Of a DNA stretch of 64,000 nucleotides, positions 31,505 to 47,302 are shown in pieces. A model generated the notes under the pieces. The model was not told the DNA's origin and searched no databases. It saw only the letters and a program-made list of their open reading frames with translations. Within the stretch, counting starts at the first letter, position 1. Each line of letters starts with the position of its first letter. The position numbers were made by a program, and so were the translations under genes. The stretch is from Actinomucor elegans (lineage: Eukaryota; Mucoromycota; Mucoromycetes; Mucorales; Mucoraceae): contig JAMSLZ010000001.1 of the NCBI GenBank assembly GCA_026027325.1, forward strand, positions 1,922,001 to 1,986,000. The letters run 5' to 3'.

Positions 31505-33917
31505 ATGATTCCGTCAAATACACGCTACCTTTCAGACCGATTCAATGATACCTGCACATCAGAAAAACCTTTATTAGATGAGCATAGCCTTTCATCTCCA
31601 CCATTATCTCCAGATAGTGTATCTTCTCAATTAGCTACTGTAAATACTCTTTCATTTTGATCTATTGCTCGATGTAATGACACTTTCTTTTACATATAGG
31701 AACAGCGCAATATACAATTTTCTTATGAGCTGTAAGTTCCGCTTGGACCATCCATTTCGGATTCAGTTTCTTTTCCGAATGACATAAAAACCGGATTTGC
31801 TGATATTCTTTTTGTCCCATAGACTATCTGATGCACGACCCCACTTGAACGAAGTGAGCTCTGAAAGCGAGTTTGATGAGTGAGTCTTTTTTTTTCTATT
31901 TTTTTCTTTTTGTTCAGCATTAAAATCTTATTTTCTTTTCATTTTCCTCTTATGGTTTTATCAGAGAGCTTCGGATTCGCGTGGATGGAATTCCCGACAG
32001 TGGTGCAAAATCGCGCGTCGAAACTCAGATTAAGCTTTTGATATCGCTCACAACAAAACGTGGTTCCAAGATTCCTTACTGGTCCTATATTCGTATCTCT
32101 GAATCACTCTTGGCTACATCCAAATTACGCAAAAGCCAGCAACAAAAACTACTTGATGGTAGTGCTGCTACAATGGTCTCTGATGATTCTAAGATCCTTG
32201 ATTTGGAAGCTCGCGTTGTATGTGAAACTGATGAGAACAAAATAATCCAAATGTGCCAAGGTTGCGTCAGAAGAGAAGTAGGTTTCTAATAGCTATATCA
32301 AATATACTTTGCTAATTCTTAATACTTTTCTAGAGAAAAAGAGCTGGAAGAAAGAAGGACGCCAAGCCTTCCTACTATAACATGGACTCTAAAACCAGTA
32401 AAGAGGCCTTTGAACGTGATCGAAAGCGTGTCCTACTTTTCAATTGTGAACGTTTGGTCAATTTCAGCATGGGGGAAGCCATCATACCTACTCGCATTAC
32501 ATGCTATTGCCGCCACCATAATGAACCCATTGGTTTTCGGTAAGCACTTTATAATCATGATCTCAATCAATAATATGAATTAATTCATATTTTATCATTC
32601 AGCGTTCGATTTACATTAAAGAACGGTAGAGGAACTATTATTGCTACAGGTGAATCGCCTCCCATCATGGTTACAGATGATCACAAGGGCTCCAAAGAGC
32701 GCTCTCCAACCATGCTTAATACCAAGAAAAGAAAAAGAGCGACTTCAACTGAAACTAATGAAGATGCATATTGTTCATTGGCCACCCCAGCTTCATCAAG
32801 AAGGAATAGCGCCTGCGAAAATGATTTGAACAATACTGCCTCAGGAAGCTATTTCCCAGATTTAAATATTAACAGTTCATCAGTTCTTGGGGCAGCACCA
32901 TTAGCTACTAGCCTCTATAATGATAGCGTCTCATCATCTCCTAGCACACCTGTTTTAGCAGATTTATGGCAAGATCTGACGGTGAATTCAACCTCGTGCG
33001 CGCCTTTTCACCTTCCGATAACTGACAAGTCAAACCTACATCATGGTTGTACAAGCACCAGCCTAGCAAGTTCGCCATCAACACCAATCAACGAATTCTC
33101 CCCTCCTTCTCGTCAAAAGGTTCAGCATGCAGTAACACTTGGTGATACAAATTTAATCAATCCCTTGCAATATAACGTGGACATTGCCCTATGCCCACCT
33201 ATGACGCCAAGTCCTCCCATCTTATTAACAAGCGCACAGGCCGCCTTAGTGCCCGTCTTAGACCGCATTGAGCCTCCACTTGGTCCTACTATGGGTGGCA
33301 CAGAGATCGCTATTATTGGCCAAAACTTTGATGCAGGCCTAACTATCATGTTTGGTGATCATCCAGCCACTACTCTTTCTTGCACCCCCAATACCATTGT
33401 CTGTCTGTTACCCATCATGGATAAGCCTGGCCCTGTTATATTGTCGTTTAAAGAGCATTCTTTCTTAAGAACTTGTCCCGAGCCACCTTTGTTTAGCTAC
33501 TACGAAACCGGCCTTCAAAATATGATTGATCTCGCACTTGAAGCTTCTTTTACCCAGATCCCGGCTATAGAGAGACAGCATATCTTATCACAAACTAATA
33601 TTGAAATGGAGGTGATCCATATACTATCGCAGCAGCACTACATGGATGTAGCGCGATCAAATATGTGTGGTCAAAACTTGCTCCATCTTGCAGCGCATCT
33701 CAATTATAGTAGACTCGCACATCTCTTAATGACGCGAAATTCTGCTTTGGTTCATACCCAAGATCGTAATGGTCTGACTCCTTTACATTTTGCTTGTCTA
33801 TCCAGATCAGCTTTTGCCATCGAAGTCCTCTTAAATGCTGGTGCACATATAGATACACTCTCTAACTTTGGTACTCCTTTGCAAATGTTAGGTACTCGCG
33901 AGTTTGAAGCTTTGTAA
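31505..33917 (+). CDS. SPT23/MGA2-like transcription regulator (IPT + ankyrin)
   Basis: Six exons: 31505-31639, 31700-31731, 31823-31879, 31965-32277, 32334-32539, 32603-33917; 685 residues. Residues about 75-275 match the SPT23/MGA2 N-terminal domain (VETQIKLLISLTT, WSYIRISESLLATSKLRK, CQGCVRRERKRAGRK, LFNCERLVNFS, TRITCYCRHHNEPIGF, SPPIMVTDDHKGSK). A Ser/Thr/Pro-rich linker follows. An IPT/TIG domain lies at about 464-535 (IEPPLGPTMGGTEIAIIGQN) and ankyrin repeats at about 600-675 (LLHLAAHLN, GLTPLHFACLSRS). In yeast these ER-anchored factors are cleaved to activate OLE1, the fatty acid desaturase gene, when membranes stiffen. Here the protein ends GTPLQMLGTREFEAL with no C-terminal membrane span, so it looks soluble and constitutively free. 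Confidence 0.9.
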
Positions 33918-40789: not shown

Positions 40790-41501
40790 TTAGTTGACAG
40801 CAGAGAAGTATTCCTTGGACTTTTCGACATCAGGCTTGATGGTCTTGGCACCAGCGGTCCAGTTGGCAGGGCAGACTTCACCGTGTTCATCAGTGAACTT
40901 GAAGGCCTCAACAAGACGGAGGACTTCATCAACGGAACGACCAACGGGGAGATCGTTGATAGTGATTTGACGAACAATACCCTTGGGGTCAATGATGAAG
41001 AGACCACGGAGAGCGACACCAGCTTCTTCAATGAGAACACCATAGTCCTTAGCAATAGACTTGGTCTTATCGGCCAAAAGAGGAATCTTCATTTCACCGA
41101 GACCACCTTGCTTACGGGGAGTGTTGATCCAGGCAAGGTGAGAGAATTCTATAGTGAAAGTTTAGCCACTTGTGCTTTCAAAAAAAAACCCCCCCATGTC
41201 CTTAATAAACTTACCAGAATCAGTGGAGGCACCAATGACGGCGGTATCCAAAGCTTCGAATTCCTTGACACGCTCAGAGAAAGCGAGGATCTCAGTAGGG
41301 CAGACGAAAGTGAAATCCATAGGGTACCAGAAGAAAACAACGTACTTGCCCTTGTAGTCAGAGAGGGAGATATCCTTGAACTCACCATCAACGACAGCGG
41401 GAGCAGTGAAGGCAGGAGCAGGCTTTTGAACTTGAGCAACTATCAAAGTAAAACGCGTAAATAACCATACGGTTTACCGTGACAAAGTCATACATACCCA
41501 T
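40790..41501 (-). CDS. TSA1: Typical 2-Cys peroxiredoxin
   Basis: Three exons, minus strand: 41498-41501, 41215-41439, 40790-41148; 195 residues. Reduces hydrogen peroxide with thioredoxin as donor. Peroxidatic Cys48 in DFTFVCPTE, resolving Cys169 in HGEVCPANW. Both marks of a peroxide-sensitive form are present: GGLG at 91-94 and the C-terminal YF, which together allow overoxidation and chaperone or signalling roles. Exon 1 is only 4 nt (ATG G), so the start codon is separated from the rest by a 58-nt intron. Codons are visibly enriched for C-ending forms (GCC, ATC, TTC, AAG) compared with neighbours, fitting high expression. A 193-codon frame on the opposite strand is a by-product of that codon bias. 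Confidence 0.95.
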
Positions 41502-42007: not shown

Positions 42008-45000
42008 TCAAAAAGGTGAATTTGGTAGTCTTGATGCAGGTTGATAGGCTAAACCATACGTTGGTCTAATCTGTGAGCTCTTTACAATACCCTAGAACCA
42101 AAAAAAAAAAAAAAAACGATGAGTTGATCAAGTAAAAATGGGTTTACCATTCATATTTACCTTTGTGTCATCCACTTTGATTAATGTGGACATAGAAGAA
42201 TCTTGACTGGTAAGTGTATTTTGCATCTCGTTATCAAATGATAGACTAGGATTCTTGGTGACATTTAACTGTTTAAGATAACGGGCCCATCGGATGATCA
42301 ACATAGTACTCTTATTAGTCAGGCCGCAGTCAGACAAATCCAAGATATCTAGTTTGGATTTTTCGATAATTCCATTTAAAAACTGGACGCCTAAAAAAAG
42401 CGCATTGATATCAAAAGCTTGATCGAGAAAAAGAGCTTAAGCTTACCATCATCTCCGATTTGAGGATTCGAGTCTAGTGTTAGTTTTCGAAGCTTAGTCA
42501 TTGAGTCAAGGCAGAATGTCAAATTGATCATATCTACAGCATGTTGTTAGCCGGACACATTGTTGATTTACAGCTACATACCATCTAGTGTCAAACCGCA
42601 GCCAGTAAAGTCGATATGATGCAAATTGGGTTTTCTTGTAAAAAAAGGTTGAAAACGGCAATAGTCAAAGGTGCGTTTCATTGAATACCGAAAACTCAAA
42701 TCTGATAATCTATGACAGCAAATACAAATAGTAAGCAACACAGCCTATTTCTCATTGGATAAGGAAAGTTTTACCTTGGTAGATCGGATAAAGTATCAAA
42801 ATTTTTCCAATCAAAATCCGAGGTAATACTGGCTAACTCTAATCCTGATACTCTCTTTAAATGAATCCACAGGGCTGTCCATTGTGCAAGCATATCATTT
42901 TCGAAATGATTGCTTGCCAAGTTAATAATCAAACCTGCAGCTTGGGATACTAGGAACGTGGTTAAACAGGATCTACCGGATTTTAATGCAAACATTATCA
43001 TTACCTTTCTTTCCTTGGTCTATATAAACCTGTCGCGTCCGATCATTGATTACAAAAACCTTTCCTATATCTGTATTTTCTAACAATAAATGCTTGAGCG
43101 ATGGAATCAAATCCAAAAAGGCCGGCAGTTTTTCAAACATCAATGGACCCAGAGGGTTATGAGAAAGGTTCAAAATACGCAAACGAAATCCGGTTAAACT
43201 GGACAAAATAGCTGCTGATACTAGATTGTTACTAAGATCAAGTTCACTTAGACCTTTGTTAACAACTTTGAGCAAGGAACTTATATCACTATCGCTTAGC
43301 ATGTTGGATGCCAAATTTAATACTTGGAGCGAAGTCGAATGTTGCAATACTTGCTCAACAAGTATCATCTGCCCACTTGCAATGTCTATAGAAGCGAACA
43401 ATTAGCATTTAGATAAGCATCATGAAAATATCTGGTCCTACTTTGACGGTCCAGACATAGTTTGGTCAATGACTGAGAAGTTAACCGCTGGCGCATGTAC
43501 CTTGTTGGCTCCAATTTGAGCCTTTCACATGCATTGGTGTATATATTCAATGGTGGCTTTTTTACAATACCTAGGTAGATTGAACGTGAGTATATATGCT
43601 ATGTGTGGGTTTGCTGGTAGGTTACTTTTGACATATGCTTCTATATATTGATCATCTTGAGTAATAATGTTTCTAATGTGATCTTCTGGGTAGATATCAT
43701 GGTCCAATGTACGCATGTGACTCAGTACAGGCTACTCAGAGTTGACATTTAGGCATCAAATCGCGTCATTTGCTGGATAGATTCTTACCTCTACTCCATG
43801 GTTTACCCAGCACCTTGAGGATACGTCATTCATGAGCTTTTGAACAGTTTCTGGAGCATAATCATAGTGGATGCGAAGCTCAATAGGCTCTTGAGTCAAT
43901 ACTTTGACGCGAACATTCTGAAAAGTGCATTAATATAGCTTATTCTATTAATAAGAGAGAGGGAGAGAGAAAGGCTACCTTTTGTAATGCCCTTTTATGA
44001 ACCGCAGGCGTAATTCGAGAATGATCTTGTATATCTTCAACAAAACTATTCTCAAGTTTTTGTCTCTATTGTATATTACATTCAATAGCCTATTCTTTGA
44101 ATTTCTATATACGCGCTTACCATTAACTGTTCTTCTTTCATCACCTCAACCAAGATACTTTTACAAGATTTCATTTGAAATTCTTGATCAAAATATTCAT
44201 GCATGCGGACACGAAGTTCGAGGACTTGACAAGTTAACTTTAATTGATCTAAAGGTGCGTCGACCAAGCTTGCTTGGATGTACTCTAAAGTTTCATTACT
44301 GGATTTAAGGTATTCTTCTTTTTGCTATAACAATACATGAGATAGCCTATTCTATTTCCAATCATGCCTGCTTTACCGATTCGGATAGTTTCCACAAAGC
44401 TTCTGTCTTTAATTGCAAGATTTGCGCATAGATCAATGGAGAAAAGTCTCGAGCATCAAGCAAGAGTTTCATACTATTATCCACTGTATTTACAATCATT
44501 CGATACAGCTCATAACTCTCCAAGAGCTTGATAAACGCTAGAAACAAGGCTGCAATGGAAGCATTATGATCTCCTCGTAGCGCTAAAGAATCCAGTTTTT
44601 CTTTTTCTGCTTTTACTCGCTTCACCATTTGGAATGTTTGTTTCTATACAGCATCGTTAGTAAACGCATCAAGAATAATGAGTTCTTTACGCTTTACATA
44701 GATATGACTGATTTCTGGATCTGCTTCGTCGATATTTTCCTTATACAAATGAGCACACGTATTATACTCGCCAAGAAACAACAGGAATTTCACTAATAAA
44801 TACTTAGCCCAACTAACTCATTTTCTGTCAGAGAGACTCACTTCTTTCTTGAACGCAAAACATTAAATCATCCGTAAACTCATATAGCTTGATCAGCTCA
44901 AATTCTTTCTGTTGGCATCCTTTCACCAAATCGAATTGACCTGTTCTTTTATACAGATTACCCAACTCCCACCAAGCTGTCTTTTCAGACACATGATCTC

Positions 45001-45838
45001 TTAAATCCATCGCCAATGCCAAAGCGCGTTTTAGATTGGATTCTGCGTCTTCATGCATCCACGGCATCTTGGCCTCCATGACACCCATATTAAAGTACGA
45101 AGACTGTGACAAAATTTGTAAACTGCCTTGTTCCTCATCAATATCCTCAGCTGTCATTGTGTCAATAATCTCACGTTCTCGTTGATAGTATTGATGCGCC
45201 AGAGTGAAATCTTGGTATCGCGAGGCTTTGGAGTCAAGACTTTTTGTGAAATAAATGGTACCGAGTAGTTTGTAAGCGCTTTGAAGAAATAATTTGGGTT
45301 TGATAGGTTGATCTATATCCATTGGATCATCTATATCGTTGGGTTGATCTCGTTGTTTCTCCATGAATTGAATAGCTAAAAGACTGTGTTTGACAGCAAG
45401 TTCGTATTTGTTCAATCTATTATAACTTGATTTAGTTTCATTCTCGCTCAAATGGAAATTTTTACTTGCATTAAATAGCATTGACCTATACTTTTATGAG
45501 CTCTAATATACCTGATTAGCACAGTCTGATTGTATAATATTCAATGGTATTTACTTGGGTAACAAATGTTCGTCGATTGTAGATTCTAGAGTAGTAACAG
45601 CTAGCTTACAATGCTTGATCGCAACTTGTAAATACTGTTGAAATGTAGTATCTTCGGGATCGTCTACTTCATCGCCTTCTTCGGCTAACCATGTTGACAG
45701 TTGAATGGCTACTTTTGCAGCTTTGATTTTTTTGTGAGATGCAAGATACTCTTTGTATTCATTAATGTAATATTTGTATCCCTCTTGTATGGGATCAGCT
45801 CGTGTGTATCCAATTCCATAAGTTACTTGTTTCCCCAT
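42008..45838 (-). CDS. TONSL: Tonsoku (TONSL/TSK)-like TPR-UBL-LRR protein
   Basis: Fifteen exons, minus strand: 45555-45838, 44842-45485, 44698-44792, 44377-44643, 44121-44324, 43979-44050, 43789-43917, 43571-43731, 43442-43521, 43005-43385, 42775-42949, 42582-42709, 42447-42533, 42161-42390, 42008-42091; 1006 residues, all phases consistent. Residues 1-500 are helical TPR-like repeats (NKYELAVKHSLLAIQFM, SYFNMGVMEAKMP, TAWWELGNLYKRTGQFDLVK). About 520-610 is ubiquitin-like (NVRVKVLTQEPIELRIHYDY, DIYPEDHIRNIITQDDQYIE). About 640-1000 is LRR (LQVLNLASNMLSD, LSELDLSNNLVS, LRILNLSHNPLG). This order is that of TONSL/TSK, a histone-reading partner of MMS22L at broken forks. There are no ankyrin repeats, as in plants. 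Intron 3 carries a perfect TACTAAC branch site. The last short exon is the least certain; without it the protein ends at 42128. Confidence 0.82.
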
Positions 45839-46551: not shown

Positions 46552-47302
46552 ATGGATGAACATGGGTTCGAAGCAAGATTAAGGCATTTAGAACACGTCC
46601 TTAGCGGACATCAGCAGAACAATACATTAGCAGCTAAAGAAAGTATCCTGAAGCGAATAGGAGCAATACAGAAAGAGTTGGACACAGTGTATAAAAATAA
46701 CAAGTGCATTAAAGAATTTATTAGCAAATGTAAAGAATAACCGTGAAAAGCATACAAAAGAGATGCTCAACAATTTTGTTTTGTACTTGTAGATGATATT
46801 CATTCAAAATTACTGAATCCTAACACTTCAACATACTCTATGGAGCGCGAGATTTTAGCACCCGACGTAAAGCTCGAGCTATTGCTTACAGCTCAAGATG
46901 ATCTAGAAAAGTTTGCGCAAGAAGTGAAGCAGGTCAAGGATCTAGAATACGTTGTGAGTGGGACTGAATTTGATGGTATTGTTATAGATTTTTTTTTATT
47001 GAAGTGCAATTGTTTAAAGCGTCTTGTGTAGTTATTGATACATTAGGACCCAAGTTATCGCCATTAGAGGTTGCACATGCAGAACAAGTTACGGAATTGA
47101 ATCATTTAACAAAGCAGGTTTCCCAGTTTATGGAGCGTTATAATGGAACAGTAAGTTTATCTATATAAAATATGTGTAAAGTAGACGATTCATCTATATT
47201 ACTGCTTAGATCAATACCCTCTCTGAAATCTTTATATCTTGGGACAATATCTTGACCAGCATGGAGATGCATGTCACTGCTCTTGAACGTCAAAAAGCCT
47301 GA
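46552..47302 (+). CDS. DCTN3: Dynactin subunit 3 (p24)
   Basis: Four exons: 46552-46729, 46793-46975, 47032-47150, 47210-47302; 190 residues. Small coiled-coil subunit of the dynactin shoulder, which links dynein to cargo. Pattern matches DCTN3: an opening helix (FEARLRHLEHVL), ILKRIGAIQKELDTVYKNN, KLELLLTAQDDLEKFAQEV, VIDTLGPKLSPLEVAHAEQV and the conserved end ISWDNILTSMEMHVTALERQ. Almost entirely helical and of family length. The intron 2 acceptor was chosen (GTGTAG at 47031) because it restores the VIDTLGPKL reading; an earlier AAAG gives a slightly longer in-frame variant. Confidence 0.82.

Follow-up and report, generated by a model that had tools for sequence, protein, structure and literature searches.

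A compact, ankyrin-less protein of probable TONSL/TSK descent in Actinomucor elegans and other Mucorales

A gene of Actinomucor elegans, located on the reverse strand of the 64-kb stretch of DNA analysed here (the window), encodes a TPR solenoid, a ubiquitin-like domain (UBL), a conserved linker and ribonuclease-inhibitor (RI)-type LRRs, in that order and in one polypeptide. The protein is very probably a TONSL/TSK orthologue and represents a new fungal member of this known family, apparently overlooked within the literature searched. It is likely to be a compact form, without ankyrin repeats, whose TPR region would bind the tail of new histone H3 and whose UBL-LRR region would dock a repair partner.

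Gene model and mucoralean relatives

The gene (Table 1) consists of 16 exons and 15 introns, and the reading phase is kept across every junction in the model built on the window letters. An initial model of 1000 residues, with introns of 43-69 nt, became one of 997 residues once the acceptor of exon 2 was shifted by nine bases to fit the homologues (LLPR/AHKSIGQ, with the junction at the slash). The initial annotation had placed the start and the stop exactly and was right about phase consistency, but its counts of 15 exons and 1006 residues differ slightly from those given here. The discrepancy probably traces to the 33-nt exon 2 and to the GC-AG intron that follows it. The product spliced at this intron matches P0001 and P0002; residues of exon 2 are missing from the database entries of two relatives (P0004 and P0006), those from Mucor lusitanicus and M. 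bainieri, so that the short exon and GC-AG intron may misdirect gene finders across Mucorales. In the alignment of the seven relatives, P0001, P0002, P0003, P0005 and P0007 have a tail like that of exon 16, which the models P0004 and P0006 lack.

Table 1. Features of the TONSL/TSK-like locus and its surroundings (window coordinates), and the variant histone H3 gene (genome coordinates)
Feature	Position	Strand	Basis or remarks
416-aa ORF, IPT/TIG and ankyrin repeats	32667-33914	+	Pfam
Peroxiredoxin (AhpC-TSA, 1-cysPrx_C), flanking gene	40793-41437	-	Pfam
TONSL/TSK-like gene	42008..45838	-	ATG 45838, TGA 42008; 16 exons, 997 aa
Exons 1-6, TPR solenoid, about residues 1-486	44121..45838	-	Gene model, relatives, orthologue structure model, Foldseek
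Exons 1-3	45838-45555, 45502-45470, 45416-44842	-	Part of TPR solenoid
GC-AG intron after exon 2	45417..45469	-	TAAT/GCAAGTAA ... TTATAATAG/A; canonical TPR restored on removal
Third TPR (approximate limits)	45182..45271	-	Joint alignment, count by eye
Exons 4-6	44792-44698, 44643-44377, 44324-44121	-	Part of TPR solenoid
Exons 7-9, UBL (beta-grasp fold) with a short spacer, about residues 487-593	43626..44065	-	
Exons 7, 8, 9	44065-43979, 43917-43789, 43731-43626	-	
Exon 10, conserved linker between UBL and LRR (IVKKPPLNIYTNACERL)	43442..43570	-	Aligned to TSK and provisional TONSL
Exons 11-15, ribonuclease-inhibitor-type LRRs	42161..43385	-	
Exons 11-13	43385-43005, 42949-42775, 42709-42582	-	LRRs
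Exons 14-15	42533-42447, 42390-42161	-	LRRs
Exon 16, C-terminal tail	42008..42091	-	Last residues LPNSPF
Dynactin p22-like subunit, flanking gene	46552-46737	+	Pfam
Intron-rich H3 variant (T31, K42, A96)	G000:C27:520870-521536	+	4 introns

Rfam gives no match within the window. The open reading frame with IPT/TIG and ankyrin repeats, perhaps an Mga2/Spt23-type factor, is a separate one on the opposite strand, at a distance of about 8 kb; it is unrelated to the TONSL/TSK-like gene and forms no part of it.

A search of 5.8 billion proteins, in which 7,997 candidates were scored, returned seven matches, from Parasitella, five Mucor species and Choanephora, with 46-51% identity to the window protein upon alignment. 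P0003 and P0005 begin at about residue 141; the other five (P0001, P0002, P0004, P0006 and P0007) carry TPR, UBL and LRR together, so that the two halves are not separate genes in the annotations of these relatives. The single gene proposed initially is thus supported by the protein models of five of the seven. An alignment-based search gave 12 matches: the same seven, P0008 (unnamed, 978 aa), P0009 (Blakeslea, 652 aa), P0010 (Mycotypha, 548 aa), and two generic proteins, P0011 (a TTC28-like coral protein) and P0012 (an unnamed LRR protein), which were set aside and reused as controls. Mycotypha and Choanephora belong to the Mucorales according to a taxonomy look-up, as do the remaining genera among the nine named relatives. 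Since these searches, and the one for plant TSKs below, score only the roughly 8,000 candidates that have the most words in common with the query, the lack of other fungi and of animals among the matches is uninformative.

When the A. elegans genome (36.5 Mb, 27 contigs) was searched with the Parasitella orthologue, all 11 matches fell at the locus described here, the best six candidates being scored; no second copy was found among the best candidates with this query. It had been suggested that automated annotation might miss such a gene, and the relatives are indeed deposited as "hypothetical" or "unnamed", shortened (862, 862, 652 and 548 aa) or misnamed. The orthologue of Mucor velutinosus (P0002) carries the misleading name "phosphate transporter (Pho88)". 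A newer Pfam model, PF27087, is precomputed on four of the seven fungal matches (P0002, P0003, P0005 and P0006) and on most of the plant TSKs listed; the generic LRR protein P0012 carries it as well.

Family assignment

Sequence searches of Pfam and the PDB return only generic TPR and LRR families, the PDB matches being GPSM2/LGN and RNase inhibitor, and naming the protein by this route was rejected. Plant TSKs were collected in a search with 383 matches (among the 120 listed, 115 came from named plants and five were unnamed); the animal TONSL and RNase inhibitor sequences used for comparison are provisional versions, not database entries. Between a profile of nine fungal sequences and one of 12 plant TSKs, the alignment reaches P = 2.4e-18. 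It is colinear throughout the UBL and LRRs (fungal 555-961 to TSK 765-1179), and a separate colinear piece covers part of the TPR region (fungal 87-285 to TSK 60-281). Against a 28-member profile, where fungal 554-623 aligns to TSK 764-834 over the UBL, every segment exceeds its column-shuffled controls (n = 20 each): 155.9 against a shuffled maximum of 26.1 at full length, 61.6 against 29.4 for the TPR segment, 41.1 against 18.9 for the UBL and linker, and 116.2 against 23.3 for the LRR segment.

Such shuffles are blind to generic repeats, and real TPR and LRR proteins were therefore also compared. The TPR half alone scores 36.6-54.0 with three TSKs and 51.0 with the TTC28-like control; with provisional TONSL it scores 23.9, with the register lost and no significant alignment. 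The LRR half alone gives 57.3-89.6 with the TSKs, 81.5 with provisional TONSL and 69.8 with provisional RNase inhibitor. On these scores neither repeat half by itself tells TSK/TONSL from generic TPR or LRR proteins. The UBL and linker together score 25.2, 35.4 and 44.9 with the TSKs and 26.6 with provisional TONSL, all at the matching position, as against 14.7, 22.0 and, for provisional RNase inhibitor, just 13.6; the lowest TSK and provisional TONSL exceed the control at 22.0 only narrowly. The UBL and LRRs taken jointly give 89.4-131.3 with three TSKs and 104.0 with provisional TONSL, against 71.2, 59.7 and 19.1 for the three controls. In hmmsearch, 57 of the 120 listed TSK proteins match, and in all 57 the best domain starts in the UBL, before the LRRs; the remaining 63, Arabidopsis included, give no row. 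Moreover, the third TPR is irregular in all three groups: compared with the canonical 12-residue spacing, the stretch joining its helices is longer by about nine residues in the fungus, about eight in Arabidopsis TSK and seven in provisional TONSL, as counted by eye in a joint alignment.

Two structure models of the Parasitella orthologue were used, model 1 built with seven fungal sequences (mean pLDDT 64.4) and model 2 with 10 fungal and 20 plant TSK sequences (mean pLDDT 78.6). The predicted fold has helical hairpins along residues 17-488, consistent with an N-terminal TPR solenoid, and a beta-beta-alpha-beta pattern for the UBL. In Foldseek, LRR proteins lead the list for model 1, and 7t7t, the crystal structure of the TSK TPR domain with H3.1, takes ranks 7 and 11 and is the best of the TPR chains, the first LGN standing at rank 24. 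With model 2, 7t7t takes ranks 1 and 2, above LGN. Model 1 is the cleaner test, because plant TSKs went into model 2. Normalised to target length, the TM-scores stay modest, at 0.30-0.34 for model 1 and 0.48 for model 2. VIA-align places RNase inhibitor at the top, together with LGN for model 2, and the 50 rows that it lists do not contain 7t7t for either model, a listing too short to show absence.

The TONSL/TSK homology put forward initially is therefore upheld by the profile alignment, the UBL and linker, the joint UBL-LRR alignment, the third TPR and Foldseek; among these the UBL and linker, the joint alignment and the structure search decide the assignment. The initial annotation had regarded a preference for generic families in both halves as speaking against it. 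On sequence this outcome was narrowly escaped: the halves alone tell against the assignment, whereas the UBL and linker, the joint UBL-LRR alignment and the structure search favour it.

Plant TONSOKU/BRUSHY1 (Arabidopsis P0013; 7t7t) has the TPR, UBL, linker and RI-type LRRs in the same order as the fungal protein, and the two plant proteins scanned have no ankyrin match. Ankyrin families are likewise lacking among the Pfam matches to the window protein (E up to 1) and to its seven relatives, two of them partial (E up to 0.1), in agreement with the absence of an ankyrin block noted at the outset. The description of the architecture as plant-like holds for domain content but not for the stretch between TPR and UBL, which is about 25 residues long in the fungus and about 200 in plants. 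The fungal protein also differs in length (997 aa, against 1311 in Arabidopsis) and in the absence of the Cys-rich C-terminus of the plant consensus, and identity between the Parasitella orthologue and 20 plant TSKs amounts to just 18-21%. Animal TONSL/NFKBIL2, judged from the provisional sequence, resembles the fungal protein in the joint UBL-LRR alignment and the third TPR. It differs in having an ankyrin domain and a long middle region, several hundred residues including the ankyrins lying between TPR and UBL, which makes the fungal form the shortest of the three.

Histone H3 context and possible function

By homology, the TPR channel would bind the N-terminal tail of new, unmodified H3 in H3-H4. 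Such binding would mark freshly replicated chromatin and keep the protein at the fork. The second half, from the UBL through the linker to the LRRs, may be where a repair partner docks (in animals, MMS22L), and the protein would promote the repair of stalled or broken forks. ASF1 is present in the genome and counts in favour of this explanation. The MMS22L/Mus7 families PF14910, PF14911 and PF09462 gave zero matches each in the genome, an outcome of no weight, as no control genome matched either; the same holds for the PRC2 CXC domain PF18264, where no control matched. In exon-wise genome search, a plant TSK query misses even the known locus described here. Plants are described as having no clear MMS22L (PMC9409234).

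Four H3 genes were found in the genome with a provisional human H3.1 sequence as query, a search that could miss further ones. Three, on contigs 12, 24 and 25, encode one and the same H3 (S31/R42/S96), and the fourth, on contig 27, encodes a T31 variant that differs from this major H3 solely at S31T, R42K and S96A, its exons having been joined by eye. In its T31 and its introns the variant resembles plant H3.3. A31 occurs in none of the four. The residue-31 pairs are A/T in plants and A/S in animals. In PMC9409234, TSK is reported to read A31 of H3.1 as against T31 of H3.3, and animal TONSL to favour H3.1 and also to read H4K20me0 via its ankyrins. Since no A31 H3 was found, A31 reading, the known specificity of TSK/TONSL, could not operate as described, and selection for A31 is an improbable activity of the fungal protein. 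It may either read the tail blind to residue 31 or sort the major S31 H3 from the T31 variant. Because the variant differs from the major H3 at three positions only, it is conceivable, if rather doubtful, that the fungal TPR distinguishes H3 of the replication and replacement types through a third residue-31 code, S31 against T31.

A true TONSL orthologue might instead have lost histone reading and kept a partner-docking or structural role. We regard this as unlikely, though it deserves consideration: the TPR half matches TSK more weakly than the LRR half does, the Parasitella orthologue is distant from plant TSKs, and the H3 genes found lack A31. Against it, the TPR half is conserved in Mucorales and, among TPR chains, both models find H3-bound TSK first. 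The TPR half is also net acidic in five fungal proteins (charges between -9 and -22 for residues 1-480, with -19 in the window protein), although charge is not diagnostic, since three plant TSKs carry only -3 to -8 over 500 residues. A histone-binding orthologue remains the preferred reading.

Origin and evolutionary setting

The likeness to TONSL could also lie in the repeats only, the protein being a fungal TPR-LRR scaffold of other descent, of LGN- or NLR-like type and acting perhaps in signalling or cell polarity. It shares repeat folds with the TPRs of LGN/GPSM2 and the LRRs of RNase inhibitor/NLR proteins. These have one repeat type each and are not known to show the TPR-UBL-linker-LRR order. 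The equal scores of generic TPR and LRR proteins when the halves are tested singly, the PDB sequence matches and the top rows of VIA-align all fit a scaffold. Nevertheless, such an origin is improbable: the non-repeat UBL and linker align in place with TSK, the three domains have the same order as in TSK/TONSL, the third-TPR irregularity is common to the fungus, TSK and provisional TONSL, and Foldseek puts 7t7t over LGN with both models. The UBL with its linker, the colinear order and the irregular third TPR set the protein apart from generic repeat proteins. Acquisition from a plant by horizontal transfer, which the ankyrin-less domain content might suggest, is very improbable, at least as a recent event, because so few residues are shared between plant TSKs and the Parasitella orthologue (19 other plant TSKs are 52-68% identical to that of Arabidopsis) and the divergent form occurs in several genera of Mucorales.

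An orthologue is the favoured explanation. The initial proposal that early-diverging fungi kept the ancestral, ankyrin-less form is compatible with the data, but goes too far on relatives from Mucorales only. Gain of the ankyrins in animals is the shorter story, given that plants and Mucorales are both ankyrin-less; loss of the block in the mucoralean lineage is possible. TONSL is not known from yeasts. The family is patchy, as TONSL is reported absent in Physarum (PMC9864664), and absence from yeasts therefore need not extend to all fungi. A fungal TONSL was not described in the titles and abstract beginnings of the literature found, subscription journals lying mostly outside its coverage. 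PMC9409234 discusses how TSK/TONSL reads H3.1 in multicellular plants and animals, and the strings "fung" and "yeast" appear nowhere in that text.

A compact orthologue in a fungus with no detected A31 H3 places TSK/TONSL beyond this multicellular plant and animal setting, and bears on the origin of the animal ankyrin module. It also supplies a likely identity for "hypothetical" and misnamed proteins of Mucor and its relatives. The question arises whether TONSL was first a general reader of new H3, turning to residue 31 later, or whether reading of residue 31 is ancestral. If the S31/T31 code were true, the H3.1 reader would be older than A31 H3.1 itself, and discrimination at residue 31 would go far back in the history of the TPR pocket, each kingdom having adapted it to an H3 pair that arose locally.
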